DNA of 29,487 bases from positions 1 through 29,487 of IMG/VR virus record IMGVR_UViG_3300031886_000026; one strand, given 5' to 3'. Source of the stretch: a virus. The position numbers and the translations under genes are program-made. Position 1 is the first letter of the stretch, and each line of letters begins with the position of its first letter. Of this stretch, positions 1-20,500 are shown piece after piece. Below the pieces are notes generated by a model that saw only the letters and a list, made by a program, of their open reading frames with translations, made no database searches and had not been told where the DNA came from.

Positions 1-3000
1 TAATTGACTCAAGAATACCAGTGGTAACATCGTCAATCGCTTTTTCCCAATCCAGCGCAAAACCAACCTCCTGAACGACAGACCCAAAGTCTCCTGAATT
101 TTTTGACAGATCGACTGCAAATGCATTAAACGCTATCGTATCCCTAAACCCTTCGTCAAAAAACGATTGTGTCGGTTCGGAGAATACTGAGTATTTACCT
201 ATTCCGCTTTTGTAAATTTTCGATGCAGGAGATGGGGTATTTTTAAGATTAGGGTCTGTTTCGGCAAGACCGGAACATATTACAATTGTCTCGCAGTCTT
301 CTTCGGGAGGAGCATCCCAAGTAAACACAAGATCATCAAATACCTGTTTAACTTTAAAATTTTCTATAGCGGCGGGAGGGGTTCCATCTGTTACCGCAAT
401 GACAAACTGGGTCGGAGCTATGGATATATAACTAAAATCTTCCGCCTGTACTGAAAGTTCTATTTTATACTCTTTTCCCGGAATGGCTTCATAAGTGAAT
501 TCTGGACCAATCCCGGTTTCATTAATAAATTTTGTTTCCAGCAATCTATTGTTATTATTGTTATCGTATATTTGAACTCGATATCGCAAGAAATTCGGAT
601 CATCCTGTATAGAAGGAAGGACTGAGGAAATATCTCCAGAGATATAAGACTTTTCTTCCGTTGAATTATATTCCTCATATAGAGTCAACTCGAGGTTTCT
701 CAAGGCCGGCGTTGTACCATCAAGGGGGTCATCCCCAATTCTGGATACCTCGATAACATCACTTACAATGCCCGTATTGTCTGAAAAATCTACGGCGACT
801 GCATAAAATTCCGAACCGATTACGGGAAGGTCGGCTATTTTTCCAGCGTCATTAACGTGGAATAAAATTTCTTCATTGGTAGGTTCGAATCTTTCAAGAA
901 GTAAATTGGCAGAGATGGGATCATTTCCATTAGGCAACCCAGTATAAAGTTGTATTTTCTCTATGTCCGTATCGCTTGGCTTGGGCCAATTGAATTTATA
1001 CCATTCATTAAATATTACCCTGCCTTTAAAGGGATGAATTTTACTGGGGCCTGTTTCGTCAGCAGGAAGGGTTACGTCTAAATCTGACTTGCATATATAA
1101 TTTCCATCTTTTGTATGTACGCAGAAATCAATCTTGTATTCTTTCCCGGGGATGCCCTCATACCTAATGTCTTCTCCTGCCTGGGCATTATCTAAATATT
1201 GGGTGTCTACCGGGAAAGTACTATCGCTATTCTTATCCCAAATTCTTATTCTATACTCCTCGAAACTGGGGTCTCCTTCGATAACCGGCTCATCTGGTTT
1301 TATATTGCCGGTAATAAAAGACGGATGATGGGGCAAGTCCACTCCAGCTTCAAATTCTAAATTTTGAAAGTTTGGACTATTTTCTTCAAGCCTTAAAATT
1401 TCAATCGTATTATTTGCTTCCCCAGTATTGTTTGAAAAATCTACAGCAACTGCATAAAATTCCGAACCGGTTACGGGAAGGTCGGCTATTTTTCCGGCGT
1501 CATTAACGTGAAATTGAATTTCTTGATGGGTCGGTTCGAATCTTTCGAGGAGTAAATTGTCGGGGATGGCATAACTTCCATCAGGCGACCCAGTATATAA
1601 TTGTATTTTTTCTATGTCCGTATCGTCTGGTTTATCCCAATTGAATTTATATAATTCATTATATATTATCCTGCCTTCGAAATTTACTAATTCAGCAGGA
1701 GGGTTGGGATCCTCGGCGGCTGGCACGGTTTTTGTTGTTTTGCTATTGAATGTGGAATCACATAAATATTGACCACCTATGGTATGGACGCACAATTCTA
1801 CCGTATAGGTTTTTCCCGGTGTTACCTTAAATTCAATATCCAGACTTGCCTCATCCTTAGCTTTAGTTATGTATGCTGTATCTAAGGGTAATAGGTTGGA
1901 AGTATCTGTTGCATCCCAAAGTCTTATTCTGTATTCTTTGAAATTAGGGTCTGCTTCGATATCTGGGGGATGATTATCTCCAAATATGTTCCCAAAAATA
2001 AACGACTCATTGTCCACTATTTCTGTCGCCACACCGAGCTCTAACTGGCCAAAGGAAGTAGTGCCATCACCAAGTCTAGATATCAGTTTCGTATCACTTG
2101 CAATGCCCGTATTGTTTGAAAAATCTACTGCCGTGGCATAAAATGTTTCCGACACCCCAATCTTGTTTTCCCATTCTTCAACCCCGAACAGAATTTCTTG
2201 ACTCGTCGGTTCGAATCTTTCAAGAAGGAAATTAGCGGGATTAGCCTTATTATCCGTGAGAGGTTCTCCGGTATACAATTGTATTTTTTCTATATCACCT
2301 TCGGGGGGCTTGTCCCATTTGAGTCTATAAAGTCCATTAAACCATATTTCTCCATCAAAACCTTGCAGTTTGCCCGGGGGTATCTCGTCGTCCAATACCT
2401 GAGTTGGGGTCTTGCTTGACCATTGAACGTCTCCCGTTTTTCTTTTCGCTATCAGCCTGAATTTCAATGGCTTGCCGGGAATGGCAACGTAATGTCCCGT
2501 ATGATCGACGGGATCCATATCAACCGTAGTTAAGAAATTATTATTTTCGGCATTATATACCCACGCTTGGAAACTCTCAAAATCAGGATCAAGAAGAGAG
2601 GGTTGAACTGCATGCTCATAATGCCCGGAGAACTCCCAATTGCTATGTGCCCCAGTAAGAATATAACTATCGGTATTCCAATTCGTGCTGTAGCTGGACT
2701 TAAAGCCTGGCCCAACCGTGTCGTACCCCATGAAGTGAATCGTTCCGGAAGTGATTGGCCCCGCCTTATCCGAATAATCTATTGGTCTTCCCGCGAAATG
2801 AATAGCCTGATTAGTCGTTGTTTCCAATTCCGCCCTTAGGCTATCAGTAAGATATTGGGTTTCATATGATCTGGAACGGGGAACTTCATCCACTTTCGCC
2901 CAAGTGGACGGCCAGGGATCCGTATTAGGTTCAAGTTCTCCTATCCCCGAACCCGAATAAATTTCAACATATTCTATATCGTTTACATTTGCAGGGTACG

Positions 3001-3740
3001 TCCATTCTATCTCGACCCTATTCCCAAAATGTAAATCTACTTCGAAATCCTCCAGACCCTCGGGGATGGAGTCATCTCCAGAAGCTAAAATACCACTTCT
3101 TTTACCGAAAATATAATCCCCGCCTTTTGTGACTACATCTAGCCGGGCCTCGTATTTTTTTCCACCTATGGAATTATAAGTAACCTCATGTTCATCTTTT
3201 AATTCCTCAACTATATCATAAGTGCTTAATATATTTTCAGTTCCGGATTCATATATGGTAACTTGATACTTTTCAAAATTAGGATCATTATCCGCCCCGG
3301 GATTGGAAAGGCTGTGCCCGGGATTCGTATTAAAATTCCCGCTATCTATATCAACCCTTACGTAAGATTGCCTCTCTATAGAATCAAAATTAGACGAAAC
3401 GTCAATTATCGGAACACTTGAAGAATCCCCTATTCTAGAAACAATCACGCTTGCGGAATCGATAGATTCATTTCCGGCAAGGTCAACGGAAGTTATATAG
3501 AAATCCTGGTTTATATCATTCTTTAATTTTGGATGATTCCCTATAAAAAACGTATGAAATTGATTGGTTAAGGGGTTCGCCTGTAGCTCATAAATAGGAT
3601 TTCCAATCCTTGCAGTCCCGTCTCCTGTATATAATCTAACTAAATCTAAATCCGCATCGGCAGTATTCTCCCAATTGAATTCATATAAATTGTTAAATAG
3701 TATTTTACCCTCAAAACCCGAAGGCTTTGCTGGCGGAGTA
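1..3740 (-). repeat. Tandem array of six two-domain FN3-like units in J
   Basis: From about residue 1082 of J, a two-domain unit of roughly 217-228 residues recurs six times, beginning near 3735, 3060, 2385, 1705, 1047 and 387. Half A follows the pattern PPA-x-L-x-x-F-x-G, then N-x-L-Y-x-F-x-W, then D-I-E-K-I-Q-L-Y-T-G and F-Y-A-V-A-V-D-F-S-x-N-T-G. Half B follows Y-R-I-R-I-W-D, then P-G-K-x-Y-x-I-x-x-C-V-H-T. The W at strand B and the Y-A-V-A-V-D strand suit FN3 or a similar Ig-like fold. Units starting at 2385, 1705 and 1047 are the most alike. The first and last are diverged, and the last is followed by sequence running off the window. Such arrays in phage tips usually act as spacers or surface adhesion modules; that role is inferred here. 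Confidence 0.85.
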
Positions 3741-6700
3741 ATGTCGGCGCTAGATCTAAAGAAAGCAACCTTTTCTTCCGACGAAGCATCGCTAATAGTA
3801 TGCTTGCGGCTGGCCTTCCACCTTATTTCATGCCAAGTTTCCTCCTTAAGTGCCCCAACTTCAGTTTTTACCCCTGAATATAAATGCAATGAAGGTGTGC
3901 TATTAGATTCGGCGCATTTCTCTATTCCGGAAAACTCTATCTTCTCAATGCCAACCCCAACTTCACTAATAACCTTATCAGTAAAATCCGACCTAAAATT
4001 TGGAATGGTTGGGTCGTAAAATTCAGATCCTTTTGACCCAGTTAAAAATGATATTTCCCCGAAATCTCCGCATTTGTCATTCTTGACGTATGAGCCGTCC
4101 TTTAATGAATGATAAAGTCCAGTAGCCTGCTCTACGCTTCCGGCATCCTTTAGTTTTTCATAATAAACATTTGATATTTCTTGAATCTTATAATCAAAAT
4201 GAGTGACGTTCTGCCCTTCATTCCCATAATCATTAAAGAAATATAATTCAATCTTAGGATTAAAGGTTCCGTCGTTTTGATCTAAATCTCCGGTTCTATT
4301 TATAGAAAGGGAAACATTATTGTCAGGAATACCTCCTATTATAGTTGGAGTAAAGATTTCGCTTTCTGGCGTAGGAGGCGGAACTCCTTGTCGGTCATTA
4401 GGCTGGGCGTCACCATGACTTGGTGTGACGGATATAAGCTGGGTGCTTGACTTGTATATGGTAGACAAACTATCCACGTCCTTGAACTTGTCCCTGTTAT
4501 ATTCTAGGGCTGCTATAGTGAACGTTGCGTCATCCTCTTCGGCCACGGCAAGAACTCTGAATTCCTTGGTTTGCTGTCTCGCATCTCCACTAGCCTCAAC
4601 AATGTAAACGGCCCCTTCGGTTATCTTCTGTTGGTTATTATTGGCTCTGTCCTGATGATTAACGAATCCGCCATTTACTTGAAAGACTCCGGATTCAAGA
4701 AAATAATCATTAAGCGTTCCTGGGTGCAGCGCGCCCCCCTGCATAAATTCATCATTTTTATTGGGGCTTTCCTGGATCATGTCCAGAAATATGGTTGTCT
4801 TAATCTTCGTTCCTTCGAGAGTATCTTCGAAATAATTATGTAAATCAACACCCCCGTCGATATTCTCACTTGTTTGTGAATTTAGAGGAATCAAGGGTCG
4901 CCCTCTGTCATTCCCTAAGTCTAGGCTCCCCACTGCTCGCCCATCTCTATGTATAAAAGTTTTGAATTGTTTTTCCGCAACAACCTCATCTCCATATTCC
5001 TCAGACAACTTTCCGGAATTAGGAATAATAAAACTTATTTTCAAATATTTAAAATTCGCCTCGTCAATATCCAGTGTTTGATCTAGTAAAATATGGTTTT
5101 CATCCACCGAAATAGCATTATCCCCAACAACTTTGGCGACCCTGCCTCCGGATTTGAAATTTGTTCTATTATCGTCGGAAATCCCTATGACATCCCCGGG
5201 GCGAAGGTACCCGCCCTGCTTGTCCGTGGAAAATCTAACAACTTCTTGTTCGTTATTGGAGGTGAGAAGGATCCATCTTCCAAGTCTTAATGCTTGATCC
5301 CTTGAGGTACAACCAAGGGCGGCACTTTCTTTCTCTATTAAGCCGTGTCGAATAATACCCTCTGGGTCCTCAATGTATTCATACTTAGGAAGAAAATTAT
5401 CATCCTTGTCTTTGTATGCGACCTTTACGGCTGTAAACCTCGTGTTCTTCGAGGATCCATGGTAAGTAAAGTTGCCCTCAAGAACATTCGAATTTGTAAA
5501 ATTAAGTACTGGCTCGCTAAGAGAATCTTGAGATACGTATACTTCAGAGCCGTTGTAAAAGGCCATTCCCTTAAATACCGAAGCAATTTCCGAGAGAGCC
5601 TTGTAGGCCTCCATTTTATTATTAAGAAAAAGATTGCAACTAAATCTTCTCTCTTGTACATACATTTTGTCTGCGGTATCTAAGGCACTATTGTAATCTG
5701 GGTTATCCCTCGAAGTGGGAACGGGCTCATCGCAGTATTTGGCTATCTTGAACAATTGCCATTTATCTATATTCTCTTCCTTGACGTATTCCCCTAGCCC
5801 ATATCTTTCATTTGTTGCTATATCATAGAATATCCATGCGGGATTATCCGTCCATTCCAATTCGTCCTTAAACGTTCCGTCCCACGTTCCTGGATGCCTT
5901 GACTGTGAAGCATCATCATTCTCTACATAAATACTAGGTACTTTTACTTTTTTAAGTTTTAGGTGGAAAGTTCTTTCCGGGGCGCGAGGGAGATAGTTCG
6001 CCCTAATCAAGGAGCCTACTTGAGCACTCCCTGGGTAACTCATGTTACTTTTGATTATTTCCGTTACGCTTTCAAGTTTAACCGAATGAACTCTACTGAA
6101 ATTTTCCGGAAGAGACGTTAAGTTGCGAACAGATATCCTTCTGTTGGTTCTCCTTTTTCCGTCTTCATCCCTGCCATCAACTAATTTAAATAAAATATCT
6201 TCCTGGTATGGAGAGGTTGCGATTCCATTAATTGTGAGGTCTGTAGTACAGGTCCCAGTAACCGGATCAAGCAGTTTCCCATCTACCTGATTTTCCCAAT
6301 CCCCTAGATTAGTGTCATCAACCATTGTATGGTGAAGAACTCCGGTATAATCCCCCTCAATACGGAGCTTTAAACTATTCGGTACGATTTCCCCATCATC
6401 ACTTTTTAGATTAATGGCATTAAGCCTGCCGATATTAAAGGTCAAAGCCACCCAGTCTACGTCGCTGTCCTGGATAGTATGATGCCCATCGAAACTAGCC
6501 GTGGGTTCTCCACCAAATGAGGATGCAGAAGGAAGTATTATTCCTTTTGATTTTGTCTGAGAAACATAGGAAAAGTCCTCCATCCATTGGAATGCTCCGG
6601 TTTGGCCGGTGTATATTGCATCTTGCCCTGTCGTTCCGTGCATCAAGACCGTAGAAACATCCCGATAATTTATTGTATCATTTTCATTTAGTATCGGGGT

Positions 6701-6979
6701 GTTGTCAAGATATATGCCTTTTAGAATACCGGAGCCACTCACCAAATTCCCGGCAGGATCACAAAAACCTTCAATGGGGCCTTCGGATATAAGATCAAGA
6801 GCCTTGAAGTAACTTATTGACTCAAGCTCCTCCCACTCATTTATCTTTTTATCGTTTGTTGTATCTTGTTTTTTTACAAGAGGTTCAAATCCGGAAATAT
6901 CCCTAAACCCAAGCTTAGGGCGAGCCTTAGGCTGATTAGGGGCGTCAAAAGTAATATATGTACGATGTTCGTCTGACAT
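1..6979 (-). CDS. J: Central tail tip / host-specificity protein J (3' end beyond window)
   Basis: This frame is open from an ATG at 6979 to the left edge, giving at least 2326 residues. Residues 1 to about 870 are a lambda J-type core. Near the N-terminus it reads ALDLISEGPIEGF followed by GIYLDNTPI, and at about residues 360-400 it has GTWDGTF and NPAWIFYDIATNERYGLG. These are hallmarks of the ring-forming central tip protein that closes the tube and contacts the receptor. From about residue 1080 on, the protein is a tandem array of fibronectin-III-like pairs (separate entry), making it about twice the length of lambda J (1132 residues). The start lies 5 nt after the stop of gene I and shows no obvious Shine-Dalgarno, so translational coupling is likely. 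The receptor-binding C-terminus is outside the window. The J identity is firm; the host is unknown. Confidence 0.93.
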   Translation of the reverse strand, partial: MSDEHRTYITFDAPNQPKARPKLGFRDISGFEPLVKKQDTTNDKKINEWEELESISYFKALDLISEGPIEGFCDPAGNLVSGSGILKGIYLDNTPILNENDTINYRDVSTVLMHGTTGQDAIYTGQTGAFQWMEDFSYVSQTKSKGIILPSASSFGGEPTASFDGHHTIQDSDVDWVALTFNIGRLNAINLKSDDGEIVPNSLKLRIEGDYTGVLHHTMVDDTNLGDWENQVDGKLLDPVTGTCTTDLTINGIATSPYQEDILFKLVDGRDEDGKRRTNRRISVRNLTSLPENFSRVHSVKLESVTEIIKSNMSYPGSAQVGSLIRANYLPRAPERTFHLKLKKVKVPSIYVENDDASQSRHPGTWDGTFKDELEWTDNPAWIFYDIATNERYGLGEYVKEENIDKWQLFKIAKYCDEPVPTSRDNPDYNSALDTADKMYVQERRFSCNLFLNNKMEAYKALSEIASVFKGMAFYNGSEVYVSQDSLSEPVLNFTNSNVLEGNFTYHGSSKNTRFTAVKVAYKDKDDNFLPKYEYIEDPEGIIRHGLIEKESAALGCTSRDQALRLGRWILLTSNNEQEVVRFSTDKQGGYLRPGDVIGISDDNRTNFKSGGRVAKVVGDNAISVDENHILLDQTLDIDEANFKYLKISFIIPNSGKLSEEYGDEVVAEKQFKTFIHRDGRAVGSLDLGNDRGRPLIPLNSQTSENIDGGVDLHNYFEDTLEGTKIKTTIFLDMIQESPNKNDEFMQGGALHPGTLNDYFLESGVFQVNGGFVNHQDRANNNQQKITEGAVYIVEASGDARQQTKEFRVLAVAEEDDATFTIAALEYNRDKFKDVDSLSTIYKSSTQLISVTPSHGDAQPNDRQGVPPPTPESEIFTPTIIGGIPDNNVSLSINRTGDLDQNDGTFNPKIELYFFNDYGNEGQNVTHFDYKIQEISNVYYEKLKDAGSVEQATGLYHSLKDGSYVKNDKCGDFGEISFLTGSKGSEFYDPTIPNFRSDFTDKVISEVGVGIEKIEFSGIEKCAESNSTPSLHLYSGVKTEVGALKEETWHEIRWKASRKHTISDASSEEKVAFFRSSADITPPAKPSGFEGKILFNNLYEFNWENTADADLDLVRLYTGDGTARIGNPIYELQANPLTNQFHTFFIGNHPKLKNDINQDFYITSVDLAGNESIDSASVIVSRIGDSSSVPIIDVSSNFDSIERQSYVRVDIDSGNFNTNPGHSLSNPGADNDPNFEKYQVTIYESGTENILSTYDIVEELKDEHEVTYNSIGGKKYEARLDVVTKGGDYIFGKRSGILASGDDSIPEGLEDFEVDLHFGNRVEIEWTYPANVNDIEYVEIYSGSGIGELEPNTDPWPSTWAKVDEVPRSRSYETQYLTDSLRAELETTTNQAIHFAGRPIDYSDKAGPITSGTIHFMGYDTVGPGFKSSYSTNWNTDSYILTGAHSNWEFSGHYEHAVQPSLLDPDFESFQAWVYNAENNNFLTTVDMDPVDHTGHYVAIPGKPLKFRLIAKRKTGDVQWSSKTPTQVLDDEIPPGKLQGFDGEIWFNGLYRLKWDKPPEGDIEKIQLYTGEPLTDNKANPANFLLERFEPTSQEILFGVEEWENKIGVSETFYATAVDFSNNTGIASDTKLISRLGDGTTSFGQLELGVATEIVDNESFIFGNIFGDNHPPDIEADPNFKEYRIRLWDATDTSNLLPLDTAYITKAKDEASLDIEFKVTPGKTYTVELCVHTIGGQYLCDSTFNSKTTKTVPAAEDPNPPAELVNFEGRIIYNELYKFNWDKPDDTDIEKIQLYTGSPDGSYAIPDNLLLERFEPTHQEIQFHVNDAGKIADLPVTGSEFYAVAVDFSNNTGEANNTIEILRLEENSPNFQNLEFEAGVDLPHHPSFITGNIKPDEPVIEGDPSFEEYRIRIWDKNSDSTFPVDTQYLDNAQAGEDIRYEGIPGKEYKIDFCVHTKDGNYICKSDLDVTLPADETGPSKIHPFKGRVIFNEWYKFNWPKPSDTDIEKIQLYTGLPNGNDPISANLLLERFEPTNEEILFHVNDAGKIADLPVIGSEFYAVAVDFSDNTGIVSDVIEVSRIGDDPLDGTTPALRNLELTLYEEYNSTEEKSYISGDISSVLPSIQDDPNFLRYRVQIYDNNNNNRLLETKFINETGIGPEFTYEAIPGKEYKIELSVQAEDFSYISIAPTQFVIAVTDGTPPAAIENFKVKQVFDDLVFTWDAPPEEDCETIVICSGLAETDPNLKNTPSPASKIYKSGIGKYSVFSEPTQSFFDEGFRDTIAFNAFAVDLSKNSGDFGSVVQEVGFALDWEKAIDDVTTGILESI
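765..1651 (-). repeat. Near-identical DNA repeat inside the J array
   Basis: Bases 780-861 and 1431-1512 align with 6 mismatches in 82 positions at a separation of exactly 651 bp (217 codons). The similarity continues more loosely to about 1000 and 1651. A third, more diverged copy begins at 2115, 684 bp (228 codons) further on. Both separations are multiples of three, so the reading frame is kept. This points to recent in-frame duplication or recombination between units. Confidence 0.85.
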
Positions 6980-6984
6980 TGCAC

Positions 6985-7725
6985 TTACGTAAGTTTGGTA
7001 TAACTAATGGAATCTTCTCCCGAATTTATTCTTTCTTTCACTTGATCATCAAATTTAACGTTTCTGATGTTCAAGATGGACGAACTAATAACCGACGAAC
7101 CAACCCTGAGTCTTCCATATCCAACAGGAACGACAGATCCTTGAACCATATGATTGGTGGGCCTTTGATATATAAATGAACTAGTAGATTTTAATGTTGA
7201 CGTATTATCTTCTTCATCCGGGCCGTCAGGCTCTCCAATTACTGCTTCTATAATCCCTTGAATAACCAAGGCCGTTCCCACTTCATAAGAAATAGCAGAT
7301 AAGCCTTCGGCAATCATAACCGGATTATACCAAGCGTCTCCTCCCCAACCCATATCATCCATCCATCCTGCCGCTTGACCCAGGAGCCAGCCCGCCGCTA
7401 TACCATACATTCCATATTGAAAGGAATCATTTTTCCATAACTTTTCAAATACGTTGTTCTCTCCCATTCCCTCCATGGCTGGAGCAATATGTATTTCGGA
7501 ATCCTCAGCTAACTCTATCGACAACTCATCATGGTGCCCAACCCCATGTTTATCTACAATAATATTATACTCAACGCCTTCCCGTTCTCTCTGGAAAAGA
7601 TATTTATAGAATACGCCGGTGTTTGCTTCTATGGCTCGCAGAGCTTCCTTGGGGCTTTTAATACTAAAGTCCCATTCCTCCCCGAATTCCCTTCCGAGGC
7701 TACCATATAAAAATACCTTTGCCAT
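6985..7725 (-). CDS. I: Tail assembly protein I (TAP-I)
   Basis: This 246-residue protein has the two-part layout of lambda gpI. The N-terminus (about 1-80) looks like a ubiquitin-like beta-grasp domain that starts MAKVFLYGSLGREFG. The middle is rich in Gly, Ala and Trp (about 100-165) and is hydrophobic enough to suggest helix packing rather than export. The C-terminal segment VVPVGYGRLRVGSSVIS matches the G-x-x-VPVGYGR-x-R-x-GS signature of the family. It sits between the K-like peptidase and J, as in lambda. In lambda, gpI is needed for tip assembly but is not kept in the virion. An AGGAG lies directly against the ATG with no spacer, which is unusually close, but the N-terminus fits the family so I keep this start. 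The gap to the upstream gene is 21 nt. Confidence 0.88.
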   Translation of the reverse strand: MAKVFLYGSLGREFGEEWDFSIKSPKEALRAIEANTGVFYKYLFQREREGVEYNIIVDKHGVGHHDELSIELAEDSEIHIAPAMEGMGENNVFEKLWKNDSFQYGMYGIAAGWLLGQAAGWMDDMGWGGDAWYNPVMIAEGLSAISYEVGTALVIQGIIEAVIGEPDGPDEEDNTSTLKSTSSFIYQRPTNHMVQGSVVPVGYGRLRVGSSVISSSILNIRNVKFDDQVKERINSGEDSISYTKLT

Positions 7726-7746
7726 CTCCTTAAACCTACAATATAA

Positions 7747-8118
7747 TTACACTTTGTATTCCTCTTTGATTTTTTTAAGAAAATTTAAGAATTTCCTAGA
7801 CTTCGGAGCTGTTTTCGGAATATACGCACCATGCTTGTTGTCCACTAAGCTAAAAACAAAAAAAGGTAGACCCCATTCCTCTGAAAATGTTAGGTCTTTT
7901 TCCGAAAATTCCGAATCACAATCCACATGAGAATGGAAAATACCCATCAAACCTTTCGCTTTTATCACCTCTCTAGGTTTTATACTAAAAAGATGCTTTT
8001 TATCCTCCGCCACATTCTGAATTGATTTAATATCTATCTTTCCTTTATTATAAAGAACAAACCCGCAAATTTCCTCATTAGGTTTTTCCTTTGCTATTGA
8101 TTCTATTCTCTTTTTCAT
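7747..8118 (-). CDS. K: JAMM/MPN-domain metallopeptidase, short form of tail protein K
   Basis: This is a 123-residue JAB1/MPN (JAMM) peptidase domain. The complete zinc-binding signature is visible: E16 in NEEICGF, then H62-S-H64, seven residues, S72, two residues and D75. That equals the H-x-H-x7-S-x2-D motif. Lambda K joins this domain to a C-terminal NlpC/P60 cell-wall peptidase; here the protein ends after the JAMM part, with a basic tail. I choose the ATG at 8118 over a TTG one codon upstream. The ATG overlaps the TGA of gene L by one base (TGATG) and has an AGGA seven bases upstream. The JAMM domain in K proteins is thought to act in tip maturation; its substrate is unknown. Confidence 0.87.
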   Translation of the reverse strand: MKKRIESIAKEKPNEEICGFVLYNKGKIDIKSIQNVAEDKKHLFSIKPREVIKAKGLMGIFHSHVDCDSEFSEKDLTFSEEWGLPFFVFSLVDNKHGAYIPKTAPKSRKFLNFLKKIKEEYKV

Positions 8119-9050
8119 CAATATATCCTACTGCCCGGAAAACCTCCGAATGGCAAAGGCTCCTCCGCATCGCCCTCGAATCTCATCTTGCAAGCCCTAA
8201 GGCATTTAGAGCATTGATCCGCCATCCAGGAATCAGTACTTACGGAAGGCTTGTTGGTGATGTCAGCAGTATTATCATCAATACATACGTAGACTACCTT
8301 TCTCGGATGGAGTTCCTTTTCTATGATTACATGAACATAGTCGCCTTTTGCATAAGCTTCGCCAGGTTCCCACAGCCCTTTATCTGTGGATGGACCATTT
8401 ATTTGAAGGTCATTAGCATCCGCAACAGGAGGACCATCATAACCACAAACAGGCCCTCTGTATTTCCAAAAGCAATAATTATTGATTACTTTTCTTCGGG
8501 GGATTGAAACGTTCTCCAAATCGACGGGAGAAGTTAATTCGTATTCAACAAAAAATCTATTTTCATTTATCTTTCTGCCGATAATCCATTCTTCATTATC
8601 AATCAATGCATTAGGATCAGGATCAATTCCCTTCTCAACCCACTCCTGCTTCAATGCGGCATCATCATTATATCCAAGAAAATTTTCTGCATCTAGAAAC
8701 CTGAGGAAGGTTTTCATTCTTTTTACCTTCGCCCCTATTAAGTCATTTTTATCCTGAGCGTAAGTAGAAACAAACCCATCAATATTTATGATCTTTAGAG
8801 AAGGCCTTGTGACACTCCCATCCGCCTTAGAGCCAAATCCGGAAGATTCATATGGGATGTAATAATATTCCTGACCTCCGAAAGTTACCGGGGTTCTTAA
8901 TTCATTTATTCCTCCGTGGAACCTTATTTTCCTGGCGGAGTCCTCATTCTCAATACTATGGATCGTATATAGCTCTATAGGTTCCACTGCCACCGCCCCA
9001 AATAATTCGGAGGTGATCTTTTGCGACTTTATGGCTGATTTGTTTGGCAT
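8118..9050 (-). CDS. L: Tail tip protein L with Fe-S cysteines and an inserted CBM-like domain
   Basis: This 310-residue protein matches lambda gpL. The N-terminal half (LYTIHS, then FGGQEYYYIPYESSGF, then KTFLRFLDAENFLG) is the usual beta-rich domain. The C-terminal half carries the cysteine set C193 and C202 (spacing 9) and C280 and C287 (spacing 7), ending FGGFPGSRIY. Those two spacings equal those I recall for the four [4Fe-4S] ligands of lambda gpL. C283 and C256 are extra. Between C202 and C280 there are about 55 more residues than in lambda. They contain W-x-P-G-x-A-Y-x-x-G-D-Y-V, later V-Y-V-C and W275, the pattern of a CBM5/12-type carbohydrate-binding module. The start lies one base after the stop of M, with no clear Shine-Dalgarno. 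Confidence 0.87.
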   Translation of the reverse strand: MPNKSAIKSQKITSELFGAVAVEPIELYTIHSIENEDSARKIRFHGGINELRTPVTFGGQEYYYIPYESSGFGSKADGSVTRPSLKIINIDGFVSTYAQDKNDLIGAKVKRMKTFLRFLDAENFLGYNDDAALKQEWVEKGIDPDPNALIDNEEWIIGRKINENRFFVEYELTSPVDLENVSIPRRKVINNYCFWKYRGPVCGYDGPPVADANDLQINGPSTDKGLWEPGEAYAKGDYVHVIIEKELHPRKVVYVCIDDNTADITNKPSVSTDSWMADQCSKCLRACKMRFEGDAEEPLPFGGFPGSRIY

Positions 9051-9051
9051 T

Positions 9052-9975
9052 TTAGAAAGAGATTGTTTCTGCTATCCTACATCTTACGGAGAATACATTA
9101 TTATAAGTATAACTCTGTGAAATTTCATTACAAATAAACTTTTTGCGACTAGATTCTTTCCCATCCGGGCTAAAATAAAACCAAGTTCCGGCCTTCGACA
9201 TCATAAACGCAAGAATTAAAGTCATCTTTTCCAGATCTATGGGATCAAAAAGAAGATCGTATGTCAGGGTCTTGTCATTTATTCTTTCTTTACCAGCAAA
9301 CGGCCTAGACTTAGTTGATCCAAATTTCTTGACCCTAAACAAAGACGTCTCGTTCAAGCTCTGATCAGGAATATGCTCAAACGTATCCTTTTTGATTTCC
9401 GCCTTTATTTTATCGTAAAAATTCGTAGGCATTGAGGGTATGGCAAAAATATAGTCTTTAGAAAATAATGATATGTTTTTATTCCCAAAAACTAAATCTA
9501 CGTTTTGATACTCTCCCCTGCTGTAATTCCTTTCTATTCCCTCGCATTGAAATTCTTGTTGAAAATATGGAGGCACCGAATAAAGGGCTTTGTATTTTTC
9601 ATTTGGCTCCAAGTCGTCGTACTTTACGGTTTGAAACGGAAACGGAGAACCAATATGTTTTTCTACGTGTTCTATTATCTGTTCTATCTCCGACGCTTCT
9701 CTCTCATAGAAGGGAAGGTTCATCTGCATGCTGACATTATTCAACCCTTGAGATGAAAGAGAGGAGTACCCATCTCCAAATTGAATAAAATTATTATTAA
9801 AATTAAGAGACGTCGTGGCCCCGTAAGAAGGAATAAAGTTAAATGGATCCTCATACTCGAAACTATTAATTGTAGTTCCCGTCAGAACATCCTTTTTGAA
9901 TTGTTCATGAGATGCGGGAGAAGCCAGGTAGCCCCTCTCTATTCCCCAGAAACCGGTAATAGGGTCAGCCTTCAT
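9052..9975 (-). CDS. M: Tail tip protein M, with two M-like domains
   Basis: This 307-residue protein is about three times the length of lambda gpM (109 residues). Residues about 47-165 carry the M-family pattern: FIQFGDGYSS, then a helix EREASEIEQIIEHVEKHIGSPFPF, then F-Q-C-E-G near 142-146 and a final beta strand. Residues about 211-305 repeat the layout: a beta strand (LTYDLLFDPI), a helix DLEKMTLILAFMMSKAGTWF, then FSPDGK, KFICNEI and a terminal strand. The protein therefore looks like two M domains joined by a linker (166-210). M proteins form a ring joining the tube to the tip. The ATG overlaps the upstream stop (ATGA), and a perfect AAGGAGGT lies 6 nt upstream. Confidence 0.78.
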   Translation of the reverse strand: MKADPITGFWGIERGYLASPASHEQFKKDVLTGTTINSFEYEDPFNFIPSYGATTSLNFNNNFIQFGDGYSSLSSQGLNNVSMQMNLPFYEREASEIEQIIEHVEKHIGSPFPFQTVKYDDLEPNEKYKALYSVPPYFQQEFQCEGIERNYSRGEYQNVDLVFGNKNISLFSKDYIFAIPSMPTNFYDKIKAEIKKDTFEHIPDQSLNETSLFRVKKFGSTKSRPFAGKERINDKTLTYDLLFDPIDLEKMTLILAFMMSKAGTWFYFSPDGKESSRKKFICNEISQSYTYNNVFSVRCRIAETISF

Positions 9976-10736: not shown

Positions 10737-11562
10737 TGTAATTTATTTCAGGAACATTCATTGAGAAAGCTTTGTATTGAAGGCTCACCGTTACTTGATC
10801 GTTATAGTTTCCTGCTATTGATTCAGAAACAATACTAGCATCCTCTATCTTATATTCGATATTTTTAGAAGAATCGCACTTGTCTGAAATCTTTATATTA
10901 ATGCCTGTTAAATCTATACCATCTCTAATCGTCGTATAAACGTTCTCTGATTCGTAATCGTCTACTTCTAGCGTTAAATTGAGAGATATTTCGTAAGGCA
11001 GTGTGAGGTTTACTTGTTTGGGGAATTTCGAACCTATCCCGTAATGAGCATCCCTGATTACCCTTACTCCATATTGAAAATTAGTAACTCTATTAGTTTC
11101 TCTCCCCTTACATTCTATTTCTATTCCGCTGGAAGATGGAATAAATTTAGTTTCATTTTTGCTTTTTAATTCTCCAACGGAAAAATCCCCGCCCATTTCT
11201 CCGAATACGGAGAGGGCAAATTGCTCTTGCGGCAAATCATCAGGAGAGAAAGAAGCTCTATATTCAGTCATGAAACCACTTTGAAACGCCAAGCTTTTTT
11301 CTCCGTATTTGAATAACCCGCTAAAGCCTTCTTCTCCTAACCATTTAGTTATCCCTGATGGTTGGGACGTCATATCCTTGGAAACCGAAAACTGCCCTAT
11401 TGAGGGCGAAGTTTGAAAGGGCATAACCCTTCCCTTGTTCCCTAGAAAAGTCGACTGATCAGATTGTACCGAATAACCCCCATCCAGGCTTTGAACTCCT
11501 GAAATCGCGTAACCATCTAAATAAAAATCTTGATCAAATCCATTTATATTGCCTTGTGCCAT
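10729..11562 (-). CDS. Tail tube-like structural protein, paralogue 1
   Basis: This 277-residue protein follows the tape measure directly. Its start shares one base with the tape-measure stop (TAATG), with an AGGGG a few bases upstream. The N-terminal domain (1 to about 135) opens D-Q-D-F-Y-L-D-G-Y-A-I-S-G-V-Q-S and ends in F-A-L-S-V-F-G-E-M-G. The C-terminal domain has G-I-G-S-K-F-P-K-Q-V-N-L, I-N-I-K-I-S-D-K-C and a final strand S-I-V-S-E-S. It is similar to the next gene (254 residues) and to the C-terminal half of the tube protein. A distal-tail or tube-end ring is the most likely role. Alternatively it could be a minor tube protein that adapts tube symmetry to the M ring. Confidence 0.65.
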   Translation of the reverse strand: MAQGNINGFDQDFYLDGYAISGVQSLDGGYSVQSDQSTFLGNKGRVMPFQTSPSIGQFSVSKDMTSQPSGITKWLGEEGFSGLFKYGEKSLAFQSGFMTEYRASFSPDDLPQEQFALSVFGEMGGDFSVGELKSKNETKFIPSSSGIEIECKGRETNRVTNFQYGVRVIRDAHYGIGSKFPKQVNLTLPYEISLNLTLEVDDYESENVYTTIRDGIDLTGINIKISDKCDSSKNIEYKIEDASIVSESIAGNYNDQVTVSLQYKAFSMNVPEINYNV

Positions 11563-14500
11563 TATCCCCTAAGTGATCCACCAACCCTTCGTTGGTCGTT
11601 AATTACATCCAAAACTGCAGTCTTGATCTTTTTAGCCAAAATCTTTTCCTCGTTTGCGGAATTTCCTGCGACTTCAGTATCTTGAGTTCCTCCTGATTTG
11701 TCAACGTTTACAGTGATATTAATATCATTGTTGGTATTACTGGCGGAGCCCCCTGAAGATCCGACGAGACCCCCTTCGGAATGTCTTGAAACTGATCCTG
11801 AGTTGAGCCTACTCATAAACCCGGTTCCGTATTTATTTACGGCTGAAGATCCCATTACGAATTCCCCACCGGTCAAGAGGGAATTGGCTTGGGATGGGAT
11901 AGCTCCACCGCTATTCCGCTTTAACGTGACCTGTTGATGAAACGGGGGGCGTTCTCGCGTCAAGGGATTCTGCATAGCCCCCCTACTATAGTCCATTCCT
12001 ATTCCATTCCTTTGAGCATACCTAAGCATTTCATGCTCGCCCCTTCCGTTGTCATAAAGTTTCTCAAGATGTGCTCTTTCGTCAGTCCTGGCTTTTTTGT
12101 CGGGGTGTCTATATGTTTGACCGTTCCCCTCTATCTTAACACCCCTTCCCGCATCCAATTCCCTCCTGGCTCTCCTCTCAAACTTCCTTCCTGACCATTT
12201 TTTATAGGTCTTTGTTTTCTGCGCCCAGGCCGTGACCTTCTTCACGGTATAGGCTATCCCGGCAGCAGCGGCGAGTTGAAGTAGCATATGTTTTCTATTC
12301 TTCTTCGCTTGTTTTTTAGCCTTCTCTCTGTCCTTCAACATTTCCTTAGTCCGAAGATCTTCTCCGAATTGAGACTCCTGATCCTTGAACATCTTGGCAA
12401 TCAATGGATCATTATCAATTGCGAAACCGGACATTCTTCTATCTATCGCCCTTCCTTTTTTAATAGTCTTATACTTGGTTACGTCTCCGTATTTCTTATT
12501 TTCATCCGTATATTCTTCTCTTTCGGCAGCTCTCCCTGCGGTTATGTTCATGTTCACAGCCCCGCCGCGAGCAAACCCTTGGGCTTCTCCCCTGTTCAGT
12601 TTTTCCAGAAAACCATAACCATACATTTGAGCGGAACGACGATTAATGACGTATTCGCCACCAGTCAATACAGCGGGTACGTCGTCCTTTACTCCAGACC
12701 CGCCTACTACTTTTCCTCCGCTATTAAGCCCTAATGCCCCTACTACTCTTGAAGCAGCGCTTTCTAGGAATGCCCTTTGAATAATCTTTAAGAAACCAGT
12801 TCCTATTTCTTTTAGCCTATCGCCTAGTTCGTCAGCCCCTTCAACTGCGAGCATCATTGCGTCAGTCAAGCCGTCTCTTAATGCGGTTGGGAGTTGTATC
12901 CCAAGCCTCGTATAAATTTCCTCTGCCTGATTCTGAACCTCTGCGAATCCAATTCCTAAGCCCCGGCTCATATTCGTCATGAATTCCGTTCCGAACCCTT
13001 TATCTCTTGGAGTATTTCTTTCTAGAGATTGATTTAATTTTTGCATTATTTCATTCAAATAAGCCACCTCTTCGTCTAGCTTCTTCAAGCCTGCTGCCTC
13101 ACCTTTTCTTTCATAGATATCTGCATCTGAAACATTTCTCTTCGCAAGGCCCTCTTGCTGGACTTCAATTGCCTGTTTGGCTTTTGTTATCTGCGACGAT
13201 AGAAATCCCGAATTTTCTTTATTCCACTTCTCAGCCTCTTCGAAAGTTTTTAATTCTACAGGTTTGTCTAGAGTATCGAGGTTGAAGGAGAAAGGGGTGT
13301 ATTGGGCATCTTTGGCGGCTTGCTTGGCTTCTTCTTCTGCCCGACCAATAGCAGCCTTATATTTGGCATCATCTAATTCATTTTTGACTACAGTTCCGCC
13401 AAATAGTCCTGCGGCTGTAGTAGTCTTCATATACGGGTCTTTAGAAGGGGCCTTATAGAATCCTCTCCAAGCATCCGGGCCCATATCAATTGGTTTCCCT
13501 TTGGTGCTCTCCATACTTGCTCCCACAGAAATAGTAAATCTTTTGGCTTCGCTTTCGAGTTGCTTTTTTTCAAGATTTGTCGTCAAGTCGGATCTTTTGG
13601 CTACTTCAGCCGCCTTCGATGCCTGCCCCCATTTCGCAAGAATTCCCACATCTTTACCAACTGCTCCCGCCTCAAAAGATTCCTGGATTTTATCTTTATT
13701 AAAATCTTTTCCTCTGGATGCATCGAACACATTAATCGCTTCTTGCATTTGTTTTCCCCATAAAGCAGCCGGAGATTGAAAATATTTGAATTTTTTCACG
13801 CTAGTCATAAGCTCGCGTATATCTCTTTGGTGATCTTGCTCCATGGTTTCCCTTGCTGATGATAAAACCGATTGAAGATTTTTAATTGAATTGACTTGAA
13901 AAACCTTAAGTCCTTTGTTTTGCGTTAGAATATTTTGCAAATGTTGTTCTAAATCTTCTGAGCTCTGCATAGATTGCATTTCTGAAATCGCAGTCTCAAA
14001 GTTTGCTACAGAAAAGCCTTCCGTCATTACCGCAGTGTTAATATTCTTCATGAAGTTTGCTCGCTTAGCTTCTTCTTGTTGGGCAACTGTGGCATCTTCA
14101 TAGGCTTTGAGTCCTTGCCCGCCGCCCCATCTTGGAGGAGAGCCTGTAGCACTGGGGGCTACGGGGAACCCAACTGCCGCTCCCGCTGGCCTGCCAGGTA
14201 TAGACGCGGGATTCAGAAGTTTCAGCCCTGCGGCAACTCTGGACCTGTTGATAGTCTCAAAAATCTTAATAGCCTGTTCGCCCATTTTCTGATTGTGCAA
14301 TAGTATTGCAGCACTCAAATCTTTCTTTAGGCCCGACTCATTAAGATTTGTGCCCGAAAGCAGGTTGGCCAATAGGTCCGGGCTATATCCTTGGCCAGTA
14401 CCCAAATCCGACTTCTTCAAATCTCCCGTATGGCTCGGCTTCAATATATCCCTTATTGCTCCCTTGAGTTTCGGCTCGTTCATTGCTTGTACGGCTTGCT

Positions 14501-17500
14501 TGTCCAAGGTAGTCCGGTTTTCAAGATCCCCCCCGAATGTTTTTTCCCAATTTGTCAAAAAGTTTGCCAAATCCACATTCCCCTTGTGGGCTCCTTTCGT
14601 AAGATAAGCTTTAATATTATGATTTTTCTCTAAGTTTTGAAAAGCCCTCCCAAGACTTTCGAATACCCTATATTGTTCCTTTTCTTCTCCACTTAACGGT
14701 GCGCCGCCTTGCAGTTTCGCCTTCGCATGAGCTTCAGCCCCTTTTCCAGCCTGCTCGAGCAAATATTTTAGGTTTAATTCTTTATGGCCTTTCTCATTGA
14801 GCAGGGCCCTCGACTCGAATATAGAAACCCCCGAATCTGCATAGGTTTTATTTGTTCCCGTACTAGTGCGCCGCGCCCTTTTCGTTTTTCGGGAAGCACC
14901 TATCGTTTTTGCGGAATATGGCCCATAATCCTCTCTAAAATCTCCCCAGTTTTGGGGATCAATGCTCTCTGGGACCCTAGGACTAAAATTATATCCTGAA
15001 AATTCACTTGCAAGGGTTTTTGCGAATTCTTCCGTAATTAAATTATTAATACCACGGCCTTTACCCCCTTGGGATTTAAAGCCGCTTAGGAACCTGTGCC
15101 CCGAACTTGGCGCTTTATTATACTGATTACGAATGTTGTTTTCCCAATATTGTTGAAACTTGAGGCCTCCGGGGTCCTTAAATTGGTTCGTATGCCCTAA
15201 GGGGTTTTTATTATTGCCAAAATAGGCATGCGCCACGGATCCGGCCTCAGGTATTTTTGTCTTCGCCTGCCAATCCGTCTGCCCACTTAAAGTAGGGAAA
15301 ATTTGACCCACTTTTGCGATAGCATCTCTCGATGCTTTTAATTGTTTATCATATTTTGCCCCTTCGCCCTTTTGTCCTTTTAGATACTCGTCAATTATCT
15401 TAAAGCTCTCCAGCTTTTTTTCTGCTTTTGTTACGATCCCGGATGATGTCAATTTTTTCGACTGTTTTAGAGCTCCCGCTTTGGCCTTTATGCGATCTTC
15501 GGGAGACAACTGAAATGCCAAAGATCCTGCTTGAGACGAAGACGCACCACCCATCTGTACTACTAGTTTATCCACTTGATCTCGAAGGTTGTCCAGTGAA
15601 AAAATTAATTTTTCATTTGAAAGCAATCTTTGGATTTCTTCTTTCGCCTTAATAACCCCTTCTTTTTTTCTTATATCTTGTCCCTCGTATAGTATGTCTC
15701 TTTTTAATAAAGTGTCCGACTCAAATTGCTCCGTTTTATTAAGAAATGCATAAGGCTCTTCCTGAAATAACGCTTTTCTTTGCATTAAGTCCTGTACTCC
15801 GCCCTTTTGCTTTTGTATTTCACCGGAACCCTGAGTTAAGTGAAGTTGAAATTGAGAATTAACTTTATTTATGTTATCAAGCATGTGGGCTCTGGCCGAA
15901 TTTACTCCCTCCTGCAGCTGTAACTCTTTAAATTGATTATTTTGTAAAGTTTTCAGTTGATCCAAATGAGTATCCATTAAATGTTTTTTAAACTCTAAAT
16001 TTTGTTTATTTTTTTCATTCAATTTGATCTCCTTTGTGAATATTGCTTGGCCGGGAGCAATCGTTTGGTCTTCAGGTAGGCTATCAATCTGAGTTTTTAA
16101 TGCCTTGATAGTTTTATGGTATTCATCAAATCCAATACCTTTTAGACCCTTAAAAGCATCGGCTTCCTGGAATGCCTTATTTTGCTCAAATTGATCTTTC
16201 TCCTTTATCTTATCTAATGCTGCCAATTGATTATTGATTTCTCTCTCTTGGTTTTTCCTGTCCAAACCTTCTAACAAATCAAAGTCATAAGTAAAATTAT
16301 TTAAAAAATAATCCGTAAGACCCGTAATCGATTTCAGTTCCGGTCTTTGGGGTTTGTCAATCTCCTTCAGGAAACCTTCTTGATCTGCCCCGGACAATTT
16401 CTTCAATGCTCCGGTTTTCATAAAATCAAGCAATTGAAGCCTAAGGTCAATTTGAGTACTGTTCTCTGTCGCAGATTGAGATTTCTGGAGTTTTTTAAAT
16501 GCGAATTCTTTTCTTGTATTAGCCTTCGTTCCCTCTAGGACATCATAAGACCCAATGGCTTGACCCGACATTCCGATCATTTGTGCGCGATGCCTGCCTT
16601 CTTCTTTAATATCCTTGGATTGCCTCCTGAGATTTGCAAATAGTTTATCATATGCCAAAGTTACATTAAAAACCCTTTCTGCTTGTAATTGCAGTTGCTC
16701 ATCTATTTTTTCATATTTATCAATAGCCTTATTAATAGCCTCGCTTAACTCTAAGCCACTTATGGAACTATTCATATAAGCCGTAGTTAAAAACTGTGAA
16801 TGCTCTTCTGTTATGGCTCCAATATCCTTTAGTTTACTTATCACATCGAACATTTCCTGGGTTGCTCCCATTGTGGCCAAGCTATTCTCAGCCATTGACT
16901 GATCAAAATTCGCTCCAAGATACCCCCCTATACCAGTCCCCGCCAATACCGCTGCCGTCATACCCGTCCCGACAAGTGCGGTTCCTGTTCCTGCTGCCGC
17001 AGTTCCTGCTGCCGCAGTTGTTGCTGATGCTGTCATTGCTGTTGCCGCCCCAAACGCTCCGGTTCCTGTTGCGGCCCCGGTGGCACCAATTGCGCCGAGG
17101 ACGGGGGCGGCGGTACCGACACTAGCAATAAGCAATCCTATCCCGGCTACAATAGCAGCTGCTGTTAGCGCACCCGCAACCATGCCGCCTATGCCGGACT
17201 TAGTTCCTACATTCGCCATTCCGGGCATGTCCGTTCCGTGGCCGGCTCTCCTTCTTAAGTCTTTTATTTCTGAACTTGATAATCCGGAAGAACTTCTCTC
17301 TGCCGACTCAATGGAAAGTGCCTTCAGGTCTGCCAACATTGATTTTTTGGTTTGGGCAACACCAAACTCATTTGTAATGGAAAGAAGACCTTTATCCATG
17401 TCCTCCATTCTTTGGAAAATAATTCCCCCTATTTGAGAAGCCGCCCTATCCAAGCCTCTTTCCCCTCCTTCGCTTAAGGACAACATTGCTCCTGACAAAT

Positions 17501-20500
17501 TTTGGCGAAGTGCCAATTCTTGAGAATTTTTCTGAAGGATCTTGGAGAATGCTTCGGGACTAGAAATACTGCCAATCATTTCCGATTGAATAGAAGGATC
17601 CGTTATCTTCATCAACGCATTCCTTATTTCTCCTGCGATCCTATCAGATGCGACTGAATCTCCCATTCTGGCGGCTTTTGCCCTTTTCTCCACCATCGGC
17701 AACAAGGCTTCACCACTTTGCACTCCGGCAGATATTCTTTGGATTTCTTTCTCCATTCCTTCTGCAATTTCTTTAACGGATAAAGTAAGATCATTCAACC
17801 CCTGCACCAAACCTAAGCCTGCACCCACGATCAAACCGGGCACACCAGCAATCATAGCTCCCATCCCAGCCGCCGTAAGTGTCGGTCCCAACACTTGCCT
17901 TCCTACGTCTCTTTCCACCTGAAAGCTTCCAGAGGATGGGTCGTAATCGGATCTTTCATATTTACCTTCGTCTGAAGCCATGTAACCAGCCACCATAGGC
18001 AGCGCGAAACCCAACCCCATTGCTCCCATGCTTGGACTGGCGTTAAACAACGATCCCCCAACTCTTTTTGCTGTGTTTTTAAGGCCCTCTGGAGCTCTTG
18101 ATGCCGCAGCTCCCATAGCCCCAGTCATTCCGTACATTTGTCTTACTTCTCCGAGGGTTTTACTCCCCATTCCCTCATACCTACCTCCGACCCATTTAGC
18201 TTGAGTATTACTTAAATTTCTTCCTTCCATTTTCGTCATATAAGCCTGTTGTTTTGCTTGGGACGACACGACTGCTCTTGATTCGGCAGCAGCCGCCGCT
18301 TGCGCGGCCAAACCCATTCCCAGGTTATCGGCTGTTCTTATACTACCTGATGTTAATGCGGTTTTAATTCCCTCGGCCCTCGCCTTTCTTACTTCATGAG
18401 CTTGCCCGGTTCCTCTGAGTTTCCCTACCGGCAAATGAGCTCTAATTTTATCGATAACAGTAGCCCCTTTTACTGCTTTATTAAAGTTAGTCAACGCCTT
18501 AGAATGATTCTCAAGAGCTTTGCTGTGTACTTGTGCCAATTTTTTCTCTCTGGCGAGATTAGCGCGGCTCTCTAGAGCCTTGACTGGATTCTTGCCCGTG
18601 TATTCCTTCACTCCCCCATACAAAGCCGACCCTCCCGATTTTATATTAGATCCTGGAGTGGTATCGTAAAACCCTCCCTTTAAAAAACCCGCAGAAGCCA
18701 AATGAGCTTTAGATGATTTAAGCCCTTGATCTTGAACCGTTTTCATGAAATCCCTAGCCAGCGCTCTTTGTGTTTTGGTTGTGGGATCTACGCCGCCATG
18801 CTGAGAACCCATTAAAAACCGGGTGTCGCTTAATCCATGTTGAGCCCCAAATGCACCGGCCATATTACTTAGGAGTTTTTGCGTTGCTTTTTTACCTAAT
18901 CCAGGCCCCCCGAATCCAGAGTGTTGGCTCATCACCCTTAGGCTTTTATCAATGGATGCCTGCCGGGCCATATTGTTAAGTGTCGCTTTATCTTGCTTTC
19001 GAAGTTGCTTCTGAATCTTGTCTCTTCTTTCTTGTTTTTTCTCGGGGTCTGATTTTACGCTCTTGGCATATTCCTTGTCCACAGCGGCAGTTAAATTCTT
19101 TAACGCCGGCACCATTGTTCGGGCTATATCTCGCCTTATCGGGCTGCTATGTATATTAGTTGGGTCAGCCCATTGGGTCAACGTAGTTTTTAAATTTGCT
19201 ATGCCCCTATCAGTTAAGTCTCCCTTCAGGGCAGTCGTCATCGCCTTTCCACCTTCTATCTTCCCAAGGGTTTTCTTGATGGCCTCTTCACGAAAGAAAC
19301 CTTGGAATTGTGGACCGGCGGCCCTTAATCTTTCCGCACCACCGGCTTTGGCAATAGCCTTGGAAGTGTTCTCAAGACTTCCCTTCGCAAAGCTCATAAA
19401 TTTTTTATATTCTCTCCAAGCTTGCCTTGCATCGTCTGTTCGGCCAGCTCTGGCAACAGATTTTTGGAGGCCCGCTCCTTTCCACCATTCGCTTCCAATA
19501 TCCTTCATCCAAGGACCTACCCCCATTTTCCCTCCTGGGTAAGGCGCCGTTGCTTGATGTTGAGGGGGGGGAGCCCCAACAGCCGCTGCAGCTGCCGTAG
19601 CTATATTATCAAGTCTTTGAACAACTTGGTCCATGGTGAGGGGCGATCCCGGCCCAAAGGTAGCGTAATTAGGAACGTGACCCTCGGCCATGCCTTGACG
19701 AGGATTCAATCCTCCATGAAGTTTTCTTGCTTTCGCCAATGAGCCGGCCTCTTGCTCCTTATTCACCACCGCCAAACCGGGATTCGTTCCGCTTCTCAAT
19801 TGTGGGGCCGCCACAACCTGTGGGGTTACCCCGAATGCAGATTCCCTTTTTATCGAATCAACCGTAGCCTGAGTAAAGCTTGGGTTTGCTCGAAGGATAT
19901 TGCTGGCGCCGGGGCTTATCATGGCATAATTTGGAACATGACCTCCAGAATATAATAAAGTATCCGAAGGAAAAACACCACTTCCAGAAGGAGCCCACAC
20001 CCAATCCTTCGTAGCTGGATCCCACTTCCAATGCTCCCCCTTGGGCCGCAGGCCATAGTTGCCTTTATAGGCATTGGCATGTTCCTGAGTCCATGCCCCA
20101 AGCCCTTGTCCAGGCTTAGGCTTTCCAGAATGGTGCACGAAATCCCCTACCTTCATTGGTTTCGGCTTATAGACATAATTTGGAACAAAACCAGAATGAG
20201 ACCAATCTGCCTTTAATCCTTTTGTTATCGGTTTCCCCTTGAAAAGATTAGATAACATCGGCAACCCGTATTTCCCTCCCATTTCGATGACCCACATACT
20301 GAGGTCCATCATTGCGGCATTTCCTAATGAGAGTGAGTTGCCTGCTTGAGCCATGGCCTCCAGCATTTCAGGTCTTCCACCAGTAAGTTTTAAAAGAGTT
20401 GACGTCGCCTTGTCTGACAATCCACCCATGTTGGGCATGTCTGCACTTGTTGTTGCAGGTTTTAAATTTAGATTTCTTCTGTTAACAAGGCCATAATTCG

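Follow-up and report, generated by a model that had tools for sequence, protein, structure and literature searches.

A variable array of FN3-like domain pairs in a lambda J-like tail-tip protein, probably remodelled by out-of-register recombination

The window, that is the whole 29,487-base IMG/VR virus record analysed here, carries a J-like tail-tip gene whose product, from residue 1082 onward, is a tandem array of five whole units and the first domain of a sixth. We think it probable that this array is an expanded FN3 string in a lambda-type J protein, that its domain pairs are gained, lost and exchanged by out-of-register recombination, and that the string serves as a spacer. All of the J sequences compared come from metagenome or MAG assemblies.

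The surrounding gene order is lambda-like, with a very long tape-measure-like gene followed by two small genes, an M-like gene, L, K, I and J (Table 1). J shows N-terminal hub homology to phrog_31, the best stretch being 51-627, and to Pfam Phage-tail_3 (E 2e-20). Because its NCBIfam scores fall under the curated cut-offs (198.5 against 1950 bits for lambda_TipJ, 44.5 against 140 bits for attach_TipJ_rel), we regard the protein as a divergent J-like relative and not as lambda TipJ itself. Its N-terminus matches 1,534 of 50,697 phage records, each at <60% identity (best rows ~33%); in the same 50,697 records, blastn with window positions 1-8000 found no match, and tblastn gave 0 matches both for the window array and for that of the relative L021. 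The C-terminal part of J is absent from the window, where the contig ends, and the relative L006 has ~1,000 more residues past its array. The stretch between hub domains and array has a best hhalign probability of 7, a B-domain profile match in L012 (E 0.001) and an AlphaFold2 pLDDT of 44, and is possibly an FN3 domain at the position of lambda FNIII-1 with an insertion.

Table 1. The J-like gene, the units of its array and neighbouring tail genes, in window positions.
Feature	Positions	Strand	Basis or remark
J-like tail-tip / central fibre protein, 2326 aa	2..6979	-	phrog_31 E 7.5e-132; 3' end cut by contig end
Lambda I-like tail assembly protein	6985..7725	-	phrog_32 E 3.3e-33; Pfam Lambda_tail_I just under cut-off
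Lambda K-like JAB-domain tail protein	7747..8121	-	Pfam and PHROG profile matches
Lambda L-like minor tail protein	8118..9050	-	Pfam and PHROG profile matches
Pre-array stretch, J residues 876-1081	3737..4354	-	between hub domains and array; weak profile matches and alignment only
Unit 1, 224 aa, domains A+B	3065..3736	-	starts J residue 1082; unit alignment, profile match
Unit 2, 228 aa, A+B	2381..3064	-	starts J residue 1306; unit alignment, profile match
Unit 3, 226 aa, A+B	1703..2380	-	starts J residue 1534; unit alignment, profile match
Unit 4, 217 aa, chimeric extra unit	1052..1702	-	starts J residue 1760; trees, breakpoint tests
Unit 5, 224 aa	380..1051	-	starts J residue 1977; 98.7% nt identity to L004 unit 4, dS 0.010
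Unit 6, A domain only, 126 aa	2..379	-	starts J residue 2201; cut by contig end
Copy 1 of 86% match, unit 5 A domain	771..1026	-	DNA self-match
Copy 2 of 86% match, unit 4 A domain	1422..1677	-	DNA self-match

An earlier sequence-only reading had proposed six FN3-like pairs of 217-228 residues. The lengths hold for all five whole units, and the FN3-like pairing is reproduced by a structure model; the count becomes five pairs and the opening domain of a sixth. The AlphaFold2 model, of unit 4 aligned with eight other units from the window and its relatives, has two FN3 domains (pLDDT 85). Foldseek against the PDB returned E values down to 3.5e-8, with mostly tandem FN3 chains at the top and the Ur-lambda tail tip chain Ja at rank 13 among the PDB matches of the model. 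VIA-align gave Z 9.7-12.1 among the 50 matches listed (highest 12.1) and, for the T5 central-fibre protein pb4, Z 10.0 and rmsd 4.1 over 182 aligned residues. A Pfam search of J found no fn3 family at E<=0.1. The modelled fold supports the assignment of the units as FN3 domain pairs, and the window would then hold at least 11 FN3-like domains, the full unit total being hidden by the contig end.

The plan of the array appears to be one of alternating A and B domains with a single A last, each A-B pair making one unit. The A and B profiles do not match each other (hhalign probability 0.4), and the two alternate in the nine proteins profiled (matches E < 1e-4), with no half-unit forms. Identity between whole units is only 17-49% aa across all window pairs, units 4 and 5 included, and blastp of the whole J against itself listed no off-diagonal match, so the units are defined by DNA matches, unit alignment and profile searches.

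At the DNA level, the A domains of units 4 and 5 share 256 bases at 86% identity (E=1.25e-84). Inside this match lies the agreement of 76 out of 82 bases between 780-861 and 1431-1512 that the sequence-only reading had reported, which is exact; at offsets of 600-709 no 82-base match exceeds 77/82, and the maximum in 20 codon shuffles of the array was 44/82. Within the patch, five of 27 frame-aligned codons differ, with three synonymous changes. The close match does not extend beyond the A domain, where dS is 0.34-0.42 for units 4 and 5 and 1.1-1.6 for units 3 and 4 and units 3 and 5. That the array has grown or been homogenised is borne out by the chimeric unit 4 described below, the duplicated A domain and the variable unit counts. 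The qualification that this happened recently is not supported as worded: the A-domain dS exceeds that between the J N-termini of the window and the relative L004 (0.13-0.21), two phages one unit apart. A simple recent tandem duplication was rejected on the same comparison, and on B domains that do not share that history.

Scans of IMG/VR recovered L002, L003/L004, L005/L006 and more distant J genes. In L002, which comes from a different metagenome, the J DNA is identical to that of the window to residue 1696, covering units 1, 2 and most of 3, and ends before unit 4. The J N-termini of L003/L004 and L005/L006 are ~95% identical to that of the window in DNA. In comparison with L004, where N-terminal dS is as given above, unit 1 has a dS of 0.18, unit 2 one of 1.87, and unit 3 ranges from 1.08 to saturated; the values for unit 5 and for the A domain of the sixth unit are 0.010 and 0.25. 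Identity to L004 drops from ~95% to 53-80% inside unit 2, from the A domain onward. The N-terminus is 92-97% identical to that of L006 in DNA, the units 48-66%. Divergence is thus uneven, with dS running from 0.01 to saturation, and it follows that the array has been exchanged or replaced more than the backbone. The window differs from L004 by a segment that has been replaced and was already diverged, not by a fresh copy made in place. Elsewhere in J, L005 carries a small replaced patch at the gene start (9059-9115), where 11 of J codons 5-19 differ from L006 and the rest of the shared J is identical.

Unit 4 has no counterpart in L003/L004 or L006. Its A domain groups with window unit 5 and L004 unit 4 (99/92 in the tree), its B domain groups with L004 unit 3 (99/95), and over its last 71 codons it shares 97.2% DNA identity with L004 unit 3. 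For window unit 4 and L004 unit 3 alike, 0/20,000 permutations equalled the maximum chi-square breakpoint. In constrained-tree tests, run on a 10-row subset with groups named after the first tree had been seen, four of five constraints were rejected: unit 4 A with L004 unit 3 (p-AU 0.002), unit 4 A with both unit 3s (p 0.0003), unit 4 B with unit 5 (p 0.023) and L004 unit 3 B with window unit 3 (p 4e-5); placing L004 unit 3 B with both other unit 3s was borderline (p 0.059). Trees, breakpoints and constrained trees together rule out whole-unit orthology of window unit 4 with any unit of a relative. In L004 unit 3, the A domain is of unit-3 type and the B domain of unit-4 type; the unit looks like A3 joined to B4, resembling the product of a one-unit deletion. 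A gain in the window and a loss in L004 would fit equally well, and both would need out-of-register crossing-over; a mosaic recombination mechanism is supported by these sequence comparisons. L004 also has a stop codon at 11920-11922, 30 bases before its contig end, that is missing in the near-identical L003 and is probably an end-of-contig error.

Across the family the number of units is not fixed, so that neither condition named as a refutation of the sequence-only reading, a constant count in relatives and even divergence, holds. A unit-profile search of 11 complete J proteins gives 2, 3, 4 or 6 pairs and then a single terminal A: two pairs in L012, L014, L015 and L028, three in L021, L029, L022, L050 and L056, four in L019 and six in L006, whose terminal A is weak (E 0.002 and 0.007 in two profile searches). 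The last match in L015, scored as terminal A, extends past A into a weak B match (E 4e-7, with a profile that included L015). L019/L020/L027 (99.5-99.9% aa) and L022/L023/L025 (identical) each enter the tally as one, whereas both members of the pairs L014/L028 (86% aa) and L021/L029 (94% aa) are included. L004 was omitted in spite of the stop in its frame, because that stop lies so near the contig end and is missing in L003. The survey comprised 49 loci, 24 of them with recognisable unit arrays, which with the window make 25 records (L026 is the same record as L006); in the remaining 25 loci, without a unit match, several frames are short or begin in the upstream gene, so that these are not negatives.

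An assembly artefact, with unit 4 a chimeric join of two co-occurring strains, strikes us as improbable, even though all contigs are metagenomic and contig ends are in excess in the array: 10 of the 25 array-bearing records end there, and one of the 15 others in the rest of J (Fisher one-sided p 0.023, from a hand count that ignores kinship between records). L002 argues against such a join by its identity to the window in a separate assembly, though only as far as its end before unit 4, and the longest exact repeat within the window J, at 25 bases, is short for a misjoin within one genome. Moreover, the same kind of change is seen in a second lineage, that of L011 and L018, whose N-termini are 67% identical: in each, a middle unit is present in duplicate, with matches of 85-86% nt over 821 and 741 bases at an offset of 729. 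L011 begins a third unit copy where L018 holds another unit type; its last 100 bases are an exact repeat of sequence 729 bases upstream, and this third copy is either real or an assembly cycle.

Unit number may nonetheless change slowly, because the near-identical relatives that can be compared, L019/L020/L027, L022/L023/L025 and L021/L029, have equal counts; L016, L017, L005 and L002 are cut too early for this comparison. Trees bring together the terminal A domains and the last pairs of the whole family, with middle units multiplying and several branches being long. Both this conservation of the last pair and terminal domain and the count common to close relatives would also fit neutral drift, in which recombination changes unit number without effect on fitness, within the limits of tip folding. 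We consider drift unlikely; the lack of half-unit forms in nine proteins speaks against it, if weakly, since purifying selection on folding would have the same result.

As to origins, 30 of 80 genome loci on bacterial contigs were scanned with the unit profile and yielded one array, L056, with three pairs and an A. Among the 29 array-less J genes on these contigs, 11 have one match, 2 a weak partial match and 16 none; because those 11 single matches are to the A domain, the profile searches suggest that the array grew from a lambda-like FN3 pair. L056 sits on a MAG contig labelled Candidatus Neomarinimicrobiota; the label either points to the host or comes from a binning error. The unit profile also matches the hub at J residues ~95-330 in L011-L020, L022, L024, L027 and L028 (E to 2e-20), near the position of the inserted FNIII-A described for lambda in PMC10721106, and this could be profile drift; no such hub match occurs in the J proteins of the window, L002-L006, L021, L029 or L050.

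The spacer reading that we prefer would place the array between tube-closing hub domains and a receptor-binding fibre, where the string may fix the distance from tail mouth to receptor-binding end and, by analogy with lambda and T5, may splay and fold back on receptor binding. FN3 domains are of a length at which each pair would add ~7-8 nm. J genes of related phages would recombine out of register at similar unit positions, presumably in co-infected cells, and units would so be gained, lost or swapped in frame. As unit number differs between relatives, the distance from tail mouth to receptor-binding end may itself be an evolving trait. The suggestion of the sequence-only reading that changes in unit number would alter the reach of the tip fits the place of FN3 strings in lambda and T5 (PMC11101478, PMC10038345). 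More tentatively, it is possible that the array is a phage 'periscope', in which the number of FN3 pairs is an evolving dial of hub-to-receptor distance, shuffled between coexisting phages by recombination and perhaps tracking the thickness of the host surface layer.

A different function, which we hold to be unlikely, is that of a binding array and not a spacer, each FN3 pair being adhesive (for example to surface glycans) and pair number or sequence altering avidity or specificity. The array does differ most between phages with ~95% identical J N-termini, its units are strongly unlike one another, and Ig-like domains of tails may bind cell-wall carbohydrates weakly, according to PMC10721106. 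However, the lambda receptor is described as bound by a C-terminal domain beyond the fibre (PMC11101478), and divergence between neighbours may serve only folding, <50% identity being reported as usual between adjacent domains (PMC8201768). In lambda and T5, the trigger for DNA ejection includes the FN3 string that lies between hub and fibre. The natural series of 2, 3, 4 and 6 pairs, which includes phages with ~95% identical J N-termini one unit apart, would make the role of that distance directly testable, and the family offers a clear example of units exchanged in frame at the tip of a phage tail.

The tape-measure-like protein (5,188 aa, window 11562-27128, minus strand) is variable as well. 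Its last ~490 residues and the genes down to J residue ~1,119 are 95.6% identical to L006, and its residues ~3,200-4,700 (window ~13000-17500, minus strand) match L006 only in short pieces (70-79%); this second variable region flanks the conserved block on the side away from the array. The first half of the protein holds 11 copies of the motif G[HF]VPN[YF], spaced 83-458 residues apart.

Judged by position and fold, the array is a known element of lambda and T5 tails, lengthened. In the titles and opening lines of abstracts surveyed, FN3 copy-number variation in a J protein is not reported. With lambda gpJ it shares hub homology, the L-K-I-J order and an FN3 string between hub and fibre (PMC11101478, PMC10721106). 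In the account of PMC11101478, each lambda chain has two FN3 domains that close the tube above the fibre, and receptor binding shifts the position of the strings, whereas the family described here has two to six pairs and one further domain there, in variable number. T5 pb3/pb4 likewise has consecutive FN3 domains per chain, followed by a beta-helix spike, and the unit model matches pb4; as described in PMC10038345, T5 splits its five FN3 domains per chain, within a 310 A fibre, over two proteins, whereas here they lie in one. Periscope Proteins, as presented in PMC8201768, resemble the array in having a tandem-domain stalk whose domain number differs between close relatives, as the window has a unit without counterpart in L003/L004. 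They differ in having long, highly similar DNA repeats, the best in the window being 86% over 256 bases, and, unlike theirs, change in this array appears to proceed through mosaic recombination.
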